A DNA stretch of 51,526 bases, taken from positions 103,398 to 154,923 of the forward strand of contig NZ_VJXQ01000005.1 in assembly GCF_007655485.1 (NCBI RefSeq), given 5' to 3'. Source of the DNA: Halobellus captivus. Lineage in GTDB: Archaea > Halobacteriota > Halobacteria > Halobacteriales > Haloferacaceae. The stretch's first letter is position 1. Every line of letters starts with the position of its first letter. This document shows, one piece after another, positions 14,706 through 46,024 of this stretch. The notes beneath the pieces are model-generated. The model was not told where the DNA came from and searched no databases. It saw only the letters and a list, made by a program, of their open reading frames with translations. Position numbers and translations under genes: made by a program.

Positions 14706-14924
14706 GCTTGGTTGAAATCCTCAAAGAGTTATAAGTTAGTCCGGTAGTCAGATTGGATGCAAGCCCTCTCAAAATCACAGTTACCTCAGTTCGTTGAACA
14801 AAGATATCACTAATCCACCGAGCTGTCGCTCGCTACTCTTTGAAGCTCTCGAAACGCCGGTACACACTTCAGAAGCACATCGTCCTAATTTATCGCAAGG
14901 TACGGAAGAAACGACGTACCGAAT
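14706..14924 (+). pseudogene. N-terminal remnant of an IS5-like transposase with left end
   Basis: GCTTGGTTGAAATCCTCAAA at 14706-14725 resembles the left end of the element at 40732. Downstream, MQALSKSQLPQFVEQ corresponds to MDALPKSQIHRFTEK of that element. The nucleotide sequence then tracks it through the region equivalent to YSSKFSKHRYTLPQHVV before homology stops. Several frames are needed. It is joined directly to the IS6 remnant that follows. Confidence 0.6.
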
Positions 14925-15450
14925 ATTGCCCGACGAACAGATCGAGATGCCTCGGATTCGGGGATCGTGTTCAGATACGGATCAAAAGGTAAGGCGGGGC
15001 TTGAGTTTGGTGAACCAGAAGCGACACCGCAGCTGCTGACAAAGCTCAGTATTCAGCTGCATCTCGCTGACCTTTCGCTTTCGAATACTATTTTATCTCT
15101 TGAGATATTCGGGGCCCAGTGTGTTCGTTCGACGGTTCACAAGGCGGATCTATCTCTCAAATCTGGTCGATCTCCGGATGACGTTTCCGTTGACGAAACC
15201 GTGATTCAGATTGATGACGATCAGTACTGACTGGACGCTGCCGTCGATCTAGAAGTGAGCGAATTACTACATACAAAGCTTGAAATGACGAGAGTAAATG
15301 CTCTCACAAAATTTTAATGGACTTCGCGAGAGACACGACGTCGACGATAGTGTATGTCTCGGTGATAACGCTACTCCGTTGAAAGAAGTCTGCCACCGAC
15401 ACGGCCTCGGTTTCAGATACGACCACCACGGAAGCCGCAACAGCGCCAAA
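14925..15450 (+). pseudogene. Decayed IS6-family transposase
   Basis: The plus strand reads an N-terminus with EPEATPQLLTKLSIQLHLA and then DLSLSNTILSLEIFGAQCVR. STVHKADLSLKSGRSP and DDVSVDETVIQIDDDQY follow, then a stop where the family has Trp. After further stops, CHRHGLGFRYDHHGSRN marks the region just before the third catalytic residue, and the match ends there. The final ~40 residues are missing. This is the only IS6 remnant in the window on the plus strand. Confidence 0.75.
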
Positions 15451-16099
15451 TGTATATTTTATTAGATATAACAAAGAACTAGTTCGTTCTCAAACTATAA
15501 TGATTACGTCAATCCAGAAACAGCCGACAACTGACTCAGTTCCTTCGCGTTCGCATATAATCAACTTAGTCGAACACTACCGGATTTGTGATGCTATACG
15601 TCGGCACGGGGGGAATGATCGATCACTAAGCACAGGATGACGCGGTTTTGAGAAACACTATGATCCACACCTGTGGAAAATCTCGCGAGTGATGCAGATA
15701 AGAGGATACTAGTTACGATTACTGATTACGGTTACAAAATATAGAACACGGATCACAGTCGTAGTAGCAGCCGGGCAACGTCACTCTGGGAAGCACCGTC
15801 AGTATTGATTGTCGTGTCCCAATCGAGTGCAGCAGCAACCTCTACAGCAGTATTCGACAGTACACCAGCCTCGTCGAGGCCAACGAGCAGGAGATCCTGA
15901 GCTCGTTCGGCTGTGAAATAACACCACTCCGACCGCAGTAATACGCCGTACAATGGGTAGATACCGGTGGCTGCAGAGTATGAGCATTCACGCGTGAGAA
16001 TTAACCAACAACAAAGGTAGGAACGGAGTAGTTGTTGGTTAAATCTAGAGAATTGAACCATCGAAACCGAAGTACAGTAATTCAGAATAAGGGATAGAG
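15451..16099. other. Region left of the origin; one doubtful small ORF
   Basis: Most of this stretch is AT-rich and without genes. On the minus strand a frame ending at 15753 reads FTAERAQDLLLVGLDEAGVL and then NTAVEVAAALDWDTTINTDG with SDVARLLLRL, which looks like real protein sequence. No good start is present: the frame runs upstream through the inverted repeat at 16001-16042 (possible ATG at 16061). It is probably the C-terminal part of a broken gene of unknown function. Confidence 0.35.
16001..16042. repeat. 12-bp perfect inverted repeat beside the origin
   Basis: TTAACCAACAAC (16001-16012) and GTTGTTGGTTAA (16031-16042) are exact complements separated by 18 bp. The structure lies 58 bp before the first origin box. 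It could be a protein-binding site, a cruciform associated with the origin, or a terminator; there is no T-run after either arm, which speaks against a simple terminator. Confidence 0.65.
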
Positions 16100-16869
16100 A
16101 CACCCCTCTATCGATGTGTTTAGTGGTGAGTAGTCCAACCCCTCTGCTCACGAAGTCTATTGAGTACAAGAAGGACGTCAGGCATCTTGAACGAACAGAC
16201 ACCCCTCTATCGATGTGTTCAAACCAAATTAGGATACGGGAAGAAACCGGGTAAATTAGAAGCGAACAGAGAGTTCAAGAGGAAATTCACAATAGACGGT
16301 AAGAATAGTGATTTTGAGATTGGAGAAGTTAATTACTGTTGGACAAGTACTGCCCCGTTGTTGGGGAGAATGTAAAGTCGAGGTTCTGTTGAAATCCTGG
16401 CTCTGTCTTGCGGTTTTTCTGTGAACATAATTTCACAACGGAACCCTGTGAACAGGGTAGAAGAGTCGCTCCCCCTCAATATCAACGCTGAATGATTTCA
16501 ACAGAGCCAAAGTCGAATAAACACATCGAACACATCGATAGAGGTGTGTGTGTGTGTTTGTGTAAAGATAGAAGAAGAAGTTATACCTCAAATTAAGCGT
16601 TTTACTGGATACAACTACCTATACTCCCAAACATCGTGTTACAAGTTTAGATACGTGTGTACACACCCCCGGTCATCGATTACCTATATTCCGAGACTGA
16701 CCCCACAGGTATCCTCCGAACACATCGATAGAGGGGTGTGTGTCTCGATGCATCGGTCCTGAAACACTTCGTTGTCCGTTTCTGAAAATCAACTCTAATA
16801 TTACTAGATACTGCTGAAAAAACCGATTTGATCACCTGTAACAACAAAACACACTTCGATAGGGGTGGG
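16100..16869. repeat. Upstream array of origin recognition boxes (5 copies)
   Basis: Five copies of a ~20-bp box precede the orc1/cdc6 gene. Two are in plus orientation, consensus ACACCCCTCTATCGATGTGTT (shown here with its first base dropped as CACCCCTCTATCGATGTGTT): 16100-16120 and 16199-16219. Three are inverted: 16529-16548 (AACACATCGATAGAGGTGTG), 16719-16739, and a degenerate one at 16850-16869 (CACACTTCGATAGGGGTGGG). A (GT)n run extends the box at 16529. The opposing orientations flank AT-rich DNA, the arrangement expected of archaeal origin recognition boxes around an unwinding element. Confidence 0.9.
16382..16508. mobile_element. 127-bp MITE with 8-bp target duplication
   Basis: The element begins GGTTCTGTTGAAATCC and ends GATTTCAACAGAGCC, imperfect inverted copies of each other. 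It is flanked on both sides by AAAGTCGA (16374-16381 and 16509-16516), a perfect 8-bp target-site duplication. It has no ORF. Its ends match GGCTCTGTTGAAACCC at the left end of the IS5-like element at 40732, which is the likely parent family. It is inserted between the second and third boxes of the origin's upstream array. Confidence 0.88.
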
Positions 16870-16904: not shown

Positions 16905-18365
16905 ATGAGGACTCACGATTCCGATGGCTCCAAGCCAGGTTCGGAACCATCGGAGAATGAGACCACGACGCAAGCGGATCTCGGATCTAACTCCACGGGT
17001 ACAGATTCGTCCTCCAAATCGACAGTCCAATCGTCATCTAGCCGATCCGTCGAGACTGACCAGGTGACCGAGTCACAATCGATCGAGGAGATGCTCCTCG
17101 AGTTCGACGAGCAGGATGGGCTTATTCGTGATCGATCACTCCTCGATCCAAACTACATCGTTGAAGAGGATCGAATCGTTGGTCGCGACGAACAACTTCA
17201 GGAAGTTACGAAGATGCTTCGGGTCGCACTTGGCGACAACCGGCCACCGAACCTGTTCCTTTACGGTCCCTCCGGGACGGGAAAATCGCTCATCACGAAA
17301 GCCGTCTGCAAAAACATTAGTCGAATTTGTGAGTCCCGAGATATTCGGTTTGGGACGATAGAAGTCAACTGCCAGGATCTCGATACGCTCGGCGTCGCAG
17401 TCTACGAACTCGCACAGCAAGCCGCAAGCGAGGCGGACGTAGACGTCGAAGTTCCGAAACACGGTGTGGCGACGAAAGAGAAATGGGACGAACTCTACCG
17501 AATTGTCAACGAGAATTTCGATTCCGTGGTGTTCGTCCTCGATGAATTGGATATGCTCGTTGGTCGCCGGGACAAACAGGAGCCTGCGTTCTCTCGGTTG
17601 CTCTACCAGCTATCGCGAGCCGGTGCCGCCGACGATCTTACCGCGTATCTGTCCGTGGTCGCGATTTCGAACGACACAAAGATGATGGAATCCGTCGGAA
17701 GTCGTGCATTAAGCTCGTTTACGCCTGAAGACGTTCATTTCGACGACTACGATGCGAACCAACTCCAGGCGATCCTCCGCCGTCGCCAGGACGCCTTCCA
17801 CGACAGTGTCGTTGAGGATGACGTCATCCCGCTAGCAGCCGCGTTCGCTGCACAAACGCACGGTGATGCTCGGAAAGCGATTGATTTGATGCGTGTCGCG
17901 GGCGAACTCGCTGAGCGGGACGGCGACGACCGTGTTCGCGAAGAACACGTCCGGCAAGCCCAAGACAAAGTCGAAAAGAACCGCGTCCTCGAAGTCGTCC
18001 GTGGCATCAGTACGCAGAAGAAACTTTGTTTGTACGCTACTGCGGCTGTTGCTGCCGAAGCAAATGACGGCACCGCTCGGAGTACAACCGGGTATCGAGT
18101 GTATCAGTATCTGACTGACTCGATCGATGCAGATCAGTACCAACAGGAGTCGTACGTAAACAAAATGAAAGAACTGACGACGTACTCTTTGGTCGACTTC
18201 GAGCGCCGTAGTCACGGCCCAAGCTCGGGAATGTTCCTTGAGTTCCAGTTCGGTGAGCGGCCGGACACCATCTTGGACACGCTGCGTGAGGATTCTCGTC
18301 TCAAGATGGTCTCCGACGATGAAGTCACGTCGGTCGTGAGAGCACAGGTTCGAAATGAAGCCTGA
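16905..18365 (+). CDS. Orc1/Cdc6 family replication initiator
   Basis: The product is a AAA+ origin-binding protein (486 residues from the ATG at 16905; ATG 16893 and TTG 16878 are alternatives). A low-complexity Ser/Thr/Glu-rich N-terminus precedes Walker A GPSGTGKS (about 121-128) and Walker B VVFVLDELD (about 208-216). Sensor 1 is in VVAISND, and GDARKAIDLMRVAGELAE carries sensor 2. A C-terminal winged-helix region with TTGYRVYQYL follows. It recognises origin boxes and loads the MCM helicase. The gene lies between two arrays of the CTATCGATGTGTT box, which are presumably its own binding sites and which also place its promoter under likely autoregulation. Haloarchaeal replicons commonly pair one orc gene with one such origin. 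Confidence 0.95.
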   Translation: MRTHDSDGSKPGSEPSENETTTQADLGSNSTGTDSSSKSTVQSSSSRSVETDQVTESQSIEEMLLEFDEQDGLIRDRSLLDPNYIVEEDRIVGRDEQLQEVTKMLRVALGDNRPPNLFLYGPSGTGKSLITKAVCKNISRICESRDIRFGTIEVNCQDLDTLGVAVYELAQQAASEADVDVEVPKHGVATKEKWDELYRIVNENFDSVVFVLDELDMLVGRRDKQEPAFSRLLYQLSRAGAADDLTAYLSVVAISNDTKMMESVGSRALSSFTPEDVHFDDYDANQLQAILRRRQDAFHDSVVEDDVIPLAAAFAAQTHGDARKAIDLMRVAGELAERDGDDRVREEHVRQAQDKVEKNRVLEVVRGISTQKKLCLYATAAVAAEANDGTARSTTGYRVYQYLTDSIDADQYQQESYVNKMKELTTYSLVDFERRSHGPSSGMFLEFQFGERPDTILDTLREDSRLKMVSDDEVTSVVRAQVRNEA

Positions 18366-18399
18366 CTAGACTCACACATTCGGTGTTGGATCACCTGCA

Positions 18400-18713
18400 C
18401 CCTCCCCTCTATCGATGTGTATTCGGGAGAGATACACATACACACCGATAGAGGCTCTCTTCGTCCTGGTTCTGACTGGGGTGAAGGGTTCAGACAGGCT
18501 CAAACCGCACACCTCTATCGAAGTGTTTTCCACTGGTAGAGGATTTAAAATGGCTGGAAACTCGGAATAATCTCTCCTTAGGTTTTGATGTTAAGATTGT
18601 CGTTCCGCGCCCCACTTGCTGCTAACGATTCTTTGTAGCTACATACGGATGTCACACCTCTATCGATGTGTTTGATTCGCTACTCCGACGGAACACACCT
18701 TTATCGATGTGTT
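18400..18713. repeat. Downstream array of origin recognition boxes (5 copies)
   Basis: Boxes follow the initiator gene at 18400-18420 (plus), 18439-18457 (inverted, ACACACCGATAGAGGCTCT, degenerate), 18508-18528 (plus, CACACCTCTATCGAAGTGTT), 18653-18672 (plus, CACACCTCTATCGATGTGTT) and 18694-18713 (plus, CACACCTTTATCGATGTGTT). The spacer 18529-18652 is partly AT-rich and could be a second unwinding element. The boxes begin only 35 bp after the stop codon. Confidence 0.88.
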
Positions 18714-40731: not shown

Positions 40732-41640
40732 GGCTCTGTTGAAACCCTCAGAGAGTTTCAGTTCCGTCTGGTAATTCCACAGAATGGATGCCCTCCCGAA
40801 GTCGCAGATTCACCGTTTTACTGAGAAGGCGATCCATCTGGCACGCCGAGCGGTCTATCGATACTCCTCGAAGTTTTCTAAACACCGCTATACACTCCCG
40901 CAGCACGTTGTTCTTCTGTGTCTCAAAGTTCGAAAGAACACGACCTATCGTGGCCTGCTTGACGAACTGATCGAGATGTCATAAGTCCGTCGTGCTCTCG
41001 GAGTAGCCGAACTTCCTGCACTATCAACGCTCTGTAAGGCGTTTAATCGGCTTGATATGGCTGTGTGGCGTGTTTTTATTCTCTCTCAGTGACGCTACTA
41101 TCGACAAGTGGGGTCGTTGGGATTGATGCGTCAGGGCTCGACCGTAGTCACGCCTCGAAACACTATACGAAACGAGCCGAACTCACGATTCAGCAGCTCA
41201 AAGTGACACTGCTGGTTGATACGAAGGTGAACGCAACCCTCGATCTACTCGTGACGACTATACGAAAACACGATAGCCCGATCGCACCGTCTTTGATCAA
41301 GCGTAATCCCGAGAGTATTCACATCCTTGTCGGTGACAAAGGGTACGACGATCAGAGAATCAGGCGACTTGCCCATCAATACGAGGTTTGTTCACTGATC
41401 AAGCATCGTGAGTTCACGTCACTTCACCGGGCATAGAACGAACGCTTAGACGCTGATCTCTATGGACAACGGAGTCAATCAGAGACTGTCAACTCAACGC
41501 TCAAGCGGAAGTATGGTGCGTTCGTTCGATCTCGACAACGGTGAACGCAGTTTCGTGTACTTACCATCACTGGTCTCGTTCACAACATCGACCGATCATT
41601 CCTGAACGGCCAGTACAGACGAACCGTTAAGCGGCCATAC
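40732..41640 (+). mobile_element. IS5-like (DDE) insertion element, decayed
   Basis: The left end is GGCTCTGTTGAAACCC (40732-40747), followed 37 bp later by the transposase ATG at 40784 (MDALPKSQIHRFTEKAIHLA). The frame stops at 40983 and resumes in pieces. They include GVVGIDASGLDRSHASKHYT (first Asp), LLVDTKVNATLDLLVTTIRK, ILVGDKGYDDQRIRRLA (second Asp), IKHREFTSLHRA and, after another stop, QSETVNSTLKRKYGAFVRSR (Glu). Stops and frameshifts mean it is inactive. No right terminal repeat was found, so the right end is approximate. Its left end defines the terminal-repeat family seen in the MITE at 16382. Confidence 0.8.
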
Positions 41641-43417: not shown

Positions 43418-44032
43418 ATGAGTGAGTCTGGGCCTGGGCCACGTGGGAAGGTGGAGCGATTACTTGAGAAGTATAGTCTTGAGGAGTTCGGTGATTATTT
43501 ACTTGATCGGTGGACGGCGGAGGATGCTGGGGAGCGATTGAGTTTGCGGGAGCTCGCACGAGAGTTCAATATTAGACTGCTTGAAGTGCGGTTGCGGGAG
43601 GTTGATTTGGAGCCAATTGAAGCGACGTTGGAGGGGTATTATGACTCGTTGACTGGTGATGGCGTGAGTAGTGGGGTCCAAACTCAGGTTCGACGAACCC
43701 TTGCACAATCCGGCGTAGATGTACAGGAATTGACGGACGAGTTTGTATCTCGACAGGCGATCCATACGTATTTAACTAAGACTCGGGGAGGGAAGCAACC
43801 CGCGTCGGATGCCTCAATCTCGACTGCGGGTGTCAAGGAGACAGTCGAGCGACTCCGATCGCGGATCCGGGAAGTTTCGACAGGTCGGTTAGTCCGGTTA
43901 CAGAATGCTGGAGAAATTACCCTTGGGGAGTTTCGGGTCACCGTGGATATTCAGGTGTACTGCTCCGACTGTGGGACCCAGCAGAGTATGACGGACCTTC
44001 TCTCACAGAAGGGGTGTAATTGTGGTGGGTGA
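43418..44032 (+). CDS. rdfA: Rod-determining factor RdfA
   Basis: The 204-residue protein begins PGPRGKVERLLEKYSLEEFG, then DYLLDRWTAEDAGERLSLRE, then LAREFNIRLLEVRLREVDLE. This is a helix-turn-helix-like region characteristic of the haloarchaeal RdfA family. A middle helical part follows, then a C-terminal zinc ribbon CSDCGTQQSMTDLLSQKGCN (C-x2-C...C-x-C). RdfA family proteins are linked to rod/disk cell-shape control in Haloferax, and some replicons carry extra copies. It lies 54 bp before the SMC-related gene in the same direction, the usual gene order. The pair is embedded among IS remnants, so it may be an accessory copy. Confidence 0.87.
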   Translation: MSESGPGPRGKVERLLEKYSLEEFGDYLLDRWTAEDAGERLSLRELAREFNIRLLEVRLREVDLEPIEATLEGYYDSLTGDGVSSGVQTQVRRTLAQSGVDVQELTDEFVSRQAIHTYLTKTRGGKQPASDASISTAGVKETVERLRSRIREVSTGRLVRLQNAGEITLGEFRVTVDIQVYCSDCGTQQSMTDLLSQKGCNCGG

Positions 44033-44086
44033 CTAGTGCTGGAATTTAGGAAGAATTATTGTCTGCACGTGCCAATTACAATAATA

Positions 44087-46024
44087 ATGCCAACCGACCA
44101 AATGAAGATTTCAGTATCGAATATCGGCGGTATTGATGAGACGAAGCAAACCTTCGAGCCAGGAGTCTCAATTTTGGCGGGGCGAAACGCTACGAATCGT
44201 ACGTCTTTCCTGCAGGCGGTGATGGCTGGATTCGGGAGTACGCAGGCGAGTTTGAAAGCGGATGCAGATGAAGGATTCGTTGAACTGATGGTGGATGGTG
44301 AGTCGTATACCCGAACGTTGACGCGTTCGAATGGCGGGGTTACCTATGGGGGTGATCCGTATTTGGATGACGCGGAGGTTGCGGATTTGTTTGCGTTCTT
44401 GATTGAGTCGAATGAGGCACGGTTGGCGGTGTCGCGGGATGAAGAGTTGCGGGATGTTATTATGCGGCCGGTGGATACAGAGGTGATTCAAACCGAGATT
44501 CGTGAGTTAGAGCAAAAGAAGCGGGAGGTGGATTCGAAGACTGAGGAACTTGAATCACTTAAAAATCGGCTGCCGAAGCTCCAGGAGCGGTTAACGCAAC
44601 GCCAGATGGATATTGAGACGAAGGAAGAGGAGTTGGCCAAGAGAGAGGCGGAACTTGATGAGCTTGATCAGGGACTTAAGGAGACGCGGGAGGAAAAGAA
44701 TGAGGTTGAGGAGACGTTCAGTGAGTTGCGGGAGGCACGCCAGGAGCTTGAAGATCTCCAGTATAAGCTGGAGACCGAACAAGAGAGTCTTGAGTCATTA
44801 AAGACGGAGCGGGAGGACCTACAGGACGCGCTGGAGCAGCTGGAGACTGGGTCAAAATACAGGATCGAAGAGCTGAATGCTGAATTGTCTCAGCTCCGGA
44901 GTGAGAAGCAAGCGTTGGAGGCTGAAATTAGTACCCTTCAGCAGGTTATTCAGTTCAACGAGGATATGCTGGACGGTTCAACTGCAGATATTGCACATAC
45001 GTTACAGCCCAATGGTGGTGCGAATGCTGAATCAGTCACGGATCAGTTGGTAACGGATACCGAGGTGGTGTGTTGGACGTGTAGTTCGCGGGTAGAGCAA
45101 TCTGCTATTGAGGAGACAGTGGACGATTTGCGGTCATTATTGAGCGGTAAACACAGTGAGGTCCGTGAGCTAGAGGACGAGATCGGAGAGCTGAAATCGG
45201 AGAAGGAGTCGATCGAGGTTCAGCAGGAGCGTGCCGAAGACGTATCGCGTCGTCGCCATGAGGTGGAGGAAGAAATCGAAGAACGAGAGGAGGCGATTAA
45301 TGAGTTGGAGAATCTGATTATGATACAGTCTGAGAAGATTGAGCAGCTTGAAGCGGAGGCAGAGGCCGTGGAAGATGAGGACTATGGTGAGATTCTAGAT
45401 GCGCACAAGGAGGTTAATCAACTCGGGTTCGAGCTTGACCGGCTCCACAAGGAGGTCGAAGAGATTAAGACGGAACTCGCTGAAGTAAACGACCAAGTTG
45501 CTAAGATTGGAGACCTTCAGGATCGTCGTGAGACGATTACAAGTGAACTCAATAAGCTCCGGACGAAGATTGAGCGACTCGAAGAGGGAGCAGTAGAGGC
45601 GTTTAATGACCATATGGCGGATATTCTTGGTATTCTTGAGTACGAGAATGTCGAACGGATTTGGCTCGAACGCACTACAAGGGAGGTTCGAAACGGCCGA
45701 CAGAAAGAGACGAAGAGTGTATTTGAGCTTCATATTATCCGCTCAATGCCGGATGGCACAACGTACGAGGATACTGTAGACCACCTGAGTGAGAGCGAAC
45801 GAGAGGTGACCGGACTCATCTTCGCTCTTGCGGGCTACCTTGTCCATAACGTCTACGAGACGCTCCCTGTTATGCTCCTTGACTCGCTGGAGGCAATTGA
45901 CTCAGACCGCATTACAGAACTAGTTCATTACTTCGAACAGTACGCTGATTACCTATTCGTTGCCTTGCTCTCAGAAGATGCAATGGCGCTGGATGGACAG
46001 TATCCATTCGTGAAGAGCCTGTAA
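44087..46024 (+). CDS. Archaea-specific SMC-related protein (ASRP, Sph-like)
   Basis: From the ATG at 44087 (alternative 44102, MKISVSNIGGID) the product is 645 residues. The N-terminal nucleotide-binding segment is SILAGRNATNRTSFLQAVMA, the family's atypical Walker A lacking the usual Lys. Two long coiled-coil arms (about 135-300 and 345-535) flank a hinge with one CWTC pair, like a zinc hook. The C-terminal head has HLSESEREVTGLIFALAGY (signature motif) and LPVMLLDSLEAID (Walker B). It likely acts on chromosome or cell-shape organisation with RdfA, encoded just upstream. The longer frame from 44036 is rejected because homology begins at MKIS. Confidence 0.9.
   Translation: MPTDQMKISVSNIGGIDETKQTFEPGVSILAGRNATNRTSFLQAVMAGFGSTQASLKADADEGFVELMVDGESYTRTLTRSNGGVTYGGDPYLDDAEVADLFAFLIESNEARLAVSRDEELRDVIMRPVDTEVIQTEIRELEQKKREVDSKTEELESLKNRLPKLQERLTQRQMDIETKEEELAKREAELDELDQGLKETREEKNEVEETFSELREARQELEDLQYKLETEQESLESLKTEREDLQDALEQLETGSKYRIEELNAELSQLRSEKQALEAEISTLQQVIQFNEDMLDGSTADIAHTLQPNGGANAESVTDQLVTDTEVVCWTCSSRVEQSAIEETVDDLRSLLSGKHSEVRELEDEIGELKSEKESIEVQQERAEDVSRRRHEVEEEIEEREEAINELENLIMIQSEKIEQLEAEAEAVEDEDYGEILDAHKEVNQLGFELDRLHKEVEEIKTELAEVNDQVAKIGDLQDRRETITSELNKLRTKIERLEEGAVEAFNDHMADILGILEYENVERIWLERTTREVRNGRQKETKSVFELHIIRSMPDGTTYEDTVDHLSESEREVTGLIFALAGYLVHNVYETLPVMLLDSLEAIDSDRITELVHYFEQYADYLFVALLSEDAMALDGQYPFVKSL

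Follow-up and report, generated by a model that had tools for sequence, protein, structure and literature searches.

In haloarchaea, the mobilisation of MITEs in trans by canonical transposons has been well documented (PMC3119063, PMC10264941), with examples such as the HqIRS families of Haloquadratum and ISH2 and MITEHsal1/2 of Halobacterium. One of them, HqIRS37, lies in a CRISPR spacer of Haloquadratum walsbyi HBSQ001 and is likewise a MITE within a functional repeat array (PMC3119063). The disruption of a haloarchaeal origin by a mobile element is also known, since oriC3-cdc6D of Haloarcula hispanica is an origin that carries a transposase insertion and does not function (PMC4441112). In the same species one active origin/cdc6 pair per replicon was found to be essential and sufficient, and the minimal origin of oriC1 is an AT-rich stretch that two inverted boxes enclose (PMC3936714).

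The locus described here lies in a 51.5-kb stretch of Halobellus DNA, hereafter the window, and holds a MITE that resembles HqIRS, ISH2 and MITEHsal1/2 in being short and non-coding, in having terminal inverted repeats (TIRs) related to those of a canonical transposon and an internal sequence unrelated to the IS, and in a target-site duplication (TSD) whose length would be set by a transposase acting in trans. Its host array is a predicted origin, whereas that of HqIRS37 is a CRISPR locus. As in oriC3-cdc6D (PMC4441112), a mobile element was revealed in an orc/cdc6-linked origin by comparison with related species, but oriC3-cdc6D combines a transposase insertion with a deficient set of boxes and the Halobellus origin carries a 127-bp MITE with all boxes left. 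It is a new instance and not a new kind, a clean insertion of a MITE into an archaeal origin for which an empty site is known, and otherwise routine genome turnover. The likely explanation is that a non-autonomous MITE with IS5-type tips was inserted in trans, landed in the spacer between boxes 2 and 3 and was tolerated.

Structure and position of the MITE

The MITE was placed at 16382-16508 on the plus strand by a script check and the family alignment. It is 127 bp long, begins with GGTTCTGTTGAAATCC, ends with GATTTCAACAGAGCC and is non-coding, its longest stop-free frame being 38 aa. Perfect copies of the 8-bp target-site duplication AAAGTCGA flank it at 16374-16381 and 16509-16516, as read from the sequence and confirmed by the script check. 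The TIRs are 15 bp long and match in 14 of 15 positions; the left one (16382-16396, plus strand) reads GGTTCTGTTGAAATC, with one mismatch to GGCTCTGTTGAAATC, which is the minus-strand reading of the right one (16494-16508). Coordinates, length, TIRs and duplication were all found to be exact. The element shows what is expected of a MITE: it is short (below about 600 bp) and without a transposase gene, and it has TIRs, a TSD of fixed length, an empty site and dispersed copies. When the window was scanned for units of 60-400 bp that have TIRs matching in at least 11 of 15 positions and lie between perfect 8-bp direct repeats, the MITE was the sole match of its kind, and 100 first-order Markov shuffles of the window gave two matches in total, both only 11/15.

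An Rfam search of the region gave no match. The MITE strand folds better than its shuffles (z = -2.45), mainly owing to the TIRs, and this would fit an ancestral structured part of the origin, with inverted and direct repeats arisen by chance, in place of a transposon. Such a reading is exceedingly improbable, being already refuted by the absence of the sequence at the same site in four congeners and further opposed by homologs that have their own TSDs at unrelated places.

The insertion is located upstream of an intact orc1/cdc6 initiator gene (16905-18365, plus strand) encoding 486 aa with TIGR02928, Cdc6 lid and winged-helix domains. The dN/dS of orc1 relative to congeners is 0.05-0.07, a purifying-selection figure that spans the whole divergence and not the time since insertion. 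Box 1, which is ORB-like and of the G-string type (box at 16105; 16098-16120), and box 2 (box at 16204; 16197-16219) are on the minus strand, and box 3 (box at 16530; 16527-16553), box 4 (box at 16720; 16717-16743) and box 5 (16851-16865) on the plus strand. Box 3 is inverted relative to box 2 and lies 18 bp to the right of the MITE edge. The MITE separates box 2 from box 3 in the upstream array, 16204(-) / insert / 16530(+), just as first annotated, and touches neither member of this inverted pair. Inverted G-string boxes directly beside an orc/cdc6 gene agree with the published criteria for haloarchaeal orc/cdc6-associated origins (PMC3528665), and the locus is predicted to be a plasmid-type origin of this class.

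Downstream of orc1, a second cluster of boxes at 18399-18712 (18406-, 18440+, 18512-, 18657- and 18698-) is also present in congeners, and recalls oriC2D of Haloarcula hispanica, an ORB-rich region downstream of oriC2-cdc6E that restrains oriC2 (PMC3936714).

Empty site in congeners and age of the insertion

The initial annotation had proposed that relatives be compared at this site, and the orthologous origin was found without the insert in four congeners, H. limi (G003), H. rarus (G005), H. rufus (G008) and G009, whose Orc1 orthologues are 93-95% identical and which have the same box array. H. inordinatus (G002) is another relative in the genus. Between the flanks matched by BLAST, the window has a gap of about 292 bp and H. 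rarus one of 158 bp, and the difference in the box 2-box 3 gap between window and congeners is close to the predicted 135 bp, the sum of one insert and one duplicated 8-mer. The empty site in related species documents that the insertion event is real, and since the alignment with congeners continues across it, with matches up to a few bases from the junction, the duplication is derived and not ancestral. The insertion likely came after this Halobellus lineage had split from the sampled congeners.

The sequence of the box 2-box 3 gap is just 49-55% identical to that of the congeners, and an unmutated 8/8 duplication is therefore unlikely for an insertion as old as the split. The chance of 8/8 TSD identity at that age is below 1% by our own arithmetic (0.54^8), and with a Jukes-Cantor clock the 95% limit on the age of the insertion is roughly 57% of the species-split time. 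The event had been called recent from its perfect duplication; this limit only bounds its age, and is not recent in absolute terms.

MITE family and related IS elements

Searches of the genus, the order and a plasmid collection gave homologs of the MITE with 69-80% identity in Haloferacaceae, Natrialbaceae and others. The initial annotation had suggested a search for further 127-bp copies; 23 near-full-length copies from several haloarchaeal genera could be aligned, most of them 125 bp long, and 12 of these, the window MITE included, have a perfect 8-bp duplication that differs in sequence from copy to copy. Its own genome has only one further copy, which is truncated. The tip sequence of this GGCTCTGTTGAAATC family of about 125 bp and 8-bp duplications was not found in the searchable literature.

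The tip GGYTCTGTTGAAATCC is present in 138 of 170 family genomes, and the reversed control in none. In other Haloferacaceae, tip pairs 1.2-1.6 kb apart with a perfect 8-bp TSD enclose a DDE transposase in three cases (L111, L114 and L116); these ISs have the TIR GGCTCTGTTGAAATCC and an IS5 transposase. A related IS of the own genome (L155) lies 52 kb away on the contig of the window (C17:171417-172806), and its 273-aa transposase matches the NCBIfam IS5-family model NF033579 (E 9e-59) and DDE_Tnp_1. The motifs around the catalytic residues are kept in this protein, but its residue differs at 10 positions that five relatives keep invariant, and no target-site duplication was found at the IS, so that L155 may possibly not be an active source of the MITE. 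Haloarchaeal IS5-family ISs (NF033579) and the MITE are alike in their 15-16-bp tips and 8-bp duplication, whereas the ISs measure about 1.2-1.6 kb, carry a transposase gene and have only the tips in common with it. The common tips and duplication length point to an ordinary MITE that was likely mobilised in trans by a transposase encoded elsewhere. An IS6 or ISH6-type parentage, suggested by the tip GGCTCTGTTG together with the 8-bp TSD, was ruled out by the IS5-family transposase of the ISs with the same tip.

Other elements with these tips or transposases were also seen. The window holds two degenerate IS5-type transposase remnants, one at 40732-41598 that contains stop codons and has a left tip at 40732, and one at about 14740-15036, just upstream of the origin. 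L157 (G000, C21:16279-18863), 2585 bp long, shares the tips, is flanked by a perfect 8-bp duplication (GTATTTCC) and has in place of a transposase a 740-aa gene without Pfam or NCBIfam match. Its right end resembles the start of an IS5 transposase gene, and it looks like a passenger-carrying non-autonomous IS. L163 (G008:C67), L109 (G023) and L113 (G047) are similarly transposase-less and have the same tips, perfect 8-bp duplications and cargo genes, comprising an FMN-dependent dehydrogenase-family gene resembling type-2 isopentenyl-diphosphate isomerase and two unassigned proteins.

Box spacing and possible effect on the origin

Box spacing was measured upstream of orc1 in 57 loci (L181-L237) from named haloarchaeal genomes and the congeners. 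The distance of the inverted pair, box 2 to box 3, is 184-199 bp in most of them, with a median of about 196 bp. It is 329 bp in the window, or 194 bp when the insert and one duplication are subtracted, which bears out the change in initiator-site spacing that had been annotated. The 329 bp of the window exceeds every genuine inverted-pair spacing measured, the values of 328-329 bp in L229, L230 and L232 being due to an extra, weaker box inside the gap that the motif missed. No transposon was found in the box 2-box 3 gap of other origins among the 57 loci. The other spacings of the window, 190 bp from box 3 to box 4 and 131 bp from box 4 to box 5, compare with family medians of 190.5 and 133 bp. 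A less expected by-product of this comparison is that the inverted-pair distance is conserved across many haloarchaeal genera while the sequence in between varies, which hints that the distance itself matters. With its altered distance the strain is a natural spacing mutant and an exception to this rule, and the occupied origin together with the naturally empty ones of sister species could allow box-pair distance to be tested directly.

The invaded gap could be functional, as the layout of the oriC1 minimal origin in Haloarcula hispanica indicates (PMC3936714), and the initial annotation had considered that the insertion might tune the origin. With an extra 135 bp in the inverted pair, boxes 1-2 would then cooperate less well with boxes 3-5, and initiation or copy number would fall. 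The tight clustering of inverted-pair spacing across genera, with 329 bp above all genuine values, speaks for such an effect, but genuine spacings of 207-295 bp exist and the inverted pair shows no clear 10.5-bp peak of helical phasing, and we regard it as unlikely. It is still more doubtful that initiation has become measurably weaker or differently timed through the extra 135 bp, and that selection has kept the insert as a copy-number setting.

By nearest-neighbour stability the easiest-melting 60 bp upstream of orc1, a candidate unwinding element, is at 16564-16623 and undisturbed. Of 39 origins that could be scored, 29, with that of the window among them, melt most easily between boxes 3 and 4, and the five Halobellus origins examined all do so just to the right of box 3. 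As this is outside the invaded gap, the likely unwinding element would not be interrupted. Tolerance of the insertion is inferred from what it spares, namely all boxes, the core of box 3, box 4, box 5 and orc1, and the candidate unwinding stretch. In the favoured explanation, one Halobellus lineage would have acquired the 127-bp MITE, a non-autonomous member of a widespread haloarchaeal family with IS5-type tips and 8-bp duplication, through a transposase acting in trans that inserted it between the inverted boxes 2 and 3 of an orc1/cdc6-linked origin. The main effect would be an added distance of 135 bp, or about 13 helical turns, between boxes 1-2 and the core, and initiation would be affected modestly at most. 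Judged from these features of the DNA, the insertion is probably tolerated rather than a switch.

The contig and the remaining initiator genes

The contig of the window, C17, is 225 kb long, and no Orc/Cdc6 gene besides orc1 was found on it; five further strong Orc/Cdc6 genes of the genome are on other contigs. The second effect considered in the initial annotation, silencing, would require that another origin maintains the replicon. The non-functional oriC3-cdc6D provides a precedent, C17 could belong to a larger replicon, and the five additional Orc/Cdc6 genes could be drawn upon. However, oriC3-cdc6D keeps just one box-like element per flanking region (PMC3528665), whereas the Halobellus origin keeps all of its boxes. 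With the five boxes, the box 3-4-5 spacings, the easiest-melting stretch outside the gap and orc1 all intact, and orc1 the sole Orc/Cdc6 gene found on C17, silencing is very unlikely. If C17 is a replicon of its own, this origin must still work, given that one active origin/cdc6 pair is needed per replicon in Haloarcula hispanica (PMC3936714).

The ends of C17 do not overlap, and it may represent only part of a replicon. As a sign of origin use, the GC skew of the contig shows two shallow minima and no decisive signal. C17 starts ...AACTAAACACGACC and finishes GGTCGTGTTTAGTTAAGG..., and these near-terminal inverted copies suggest an assembly break at a repeat or mobile element. Elsewhere in the window, at 43418-46024, a gene for RdfA (rod-determining factor A) is followed by a gene for a 662-aa coiled-coil protein, and the 5-kb stretch with the RdfA gene has a GC skew of 0.18, which is unusual for the contig.
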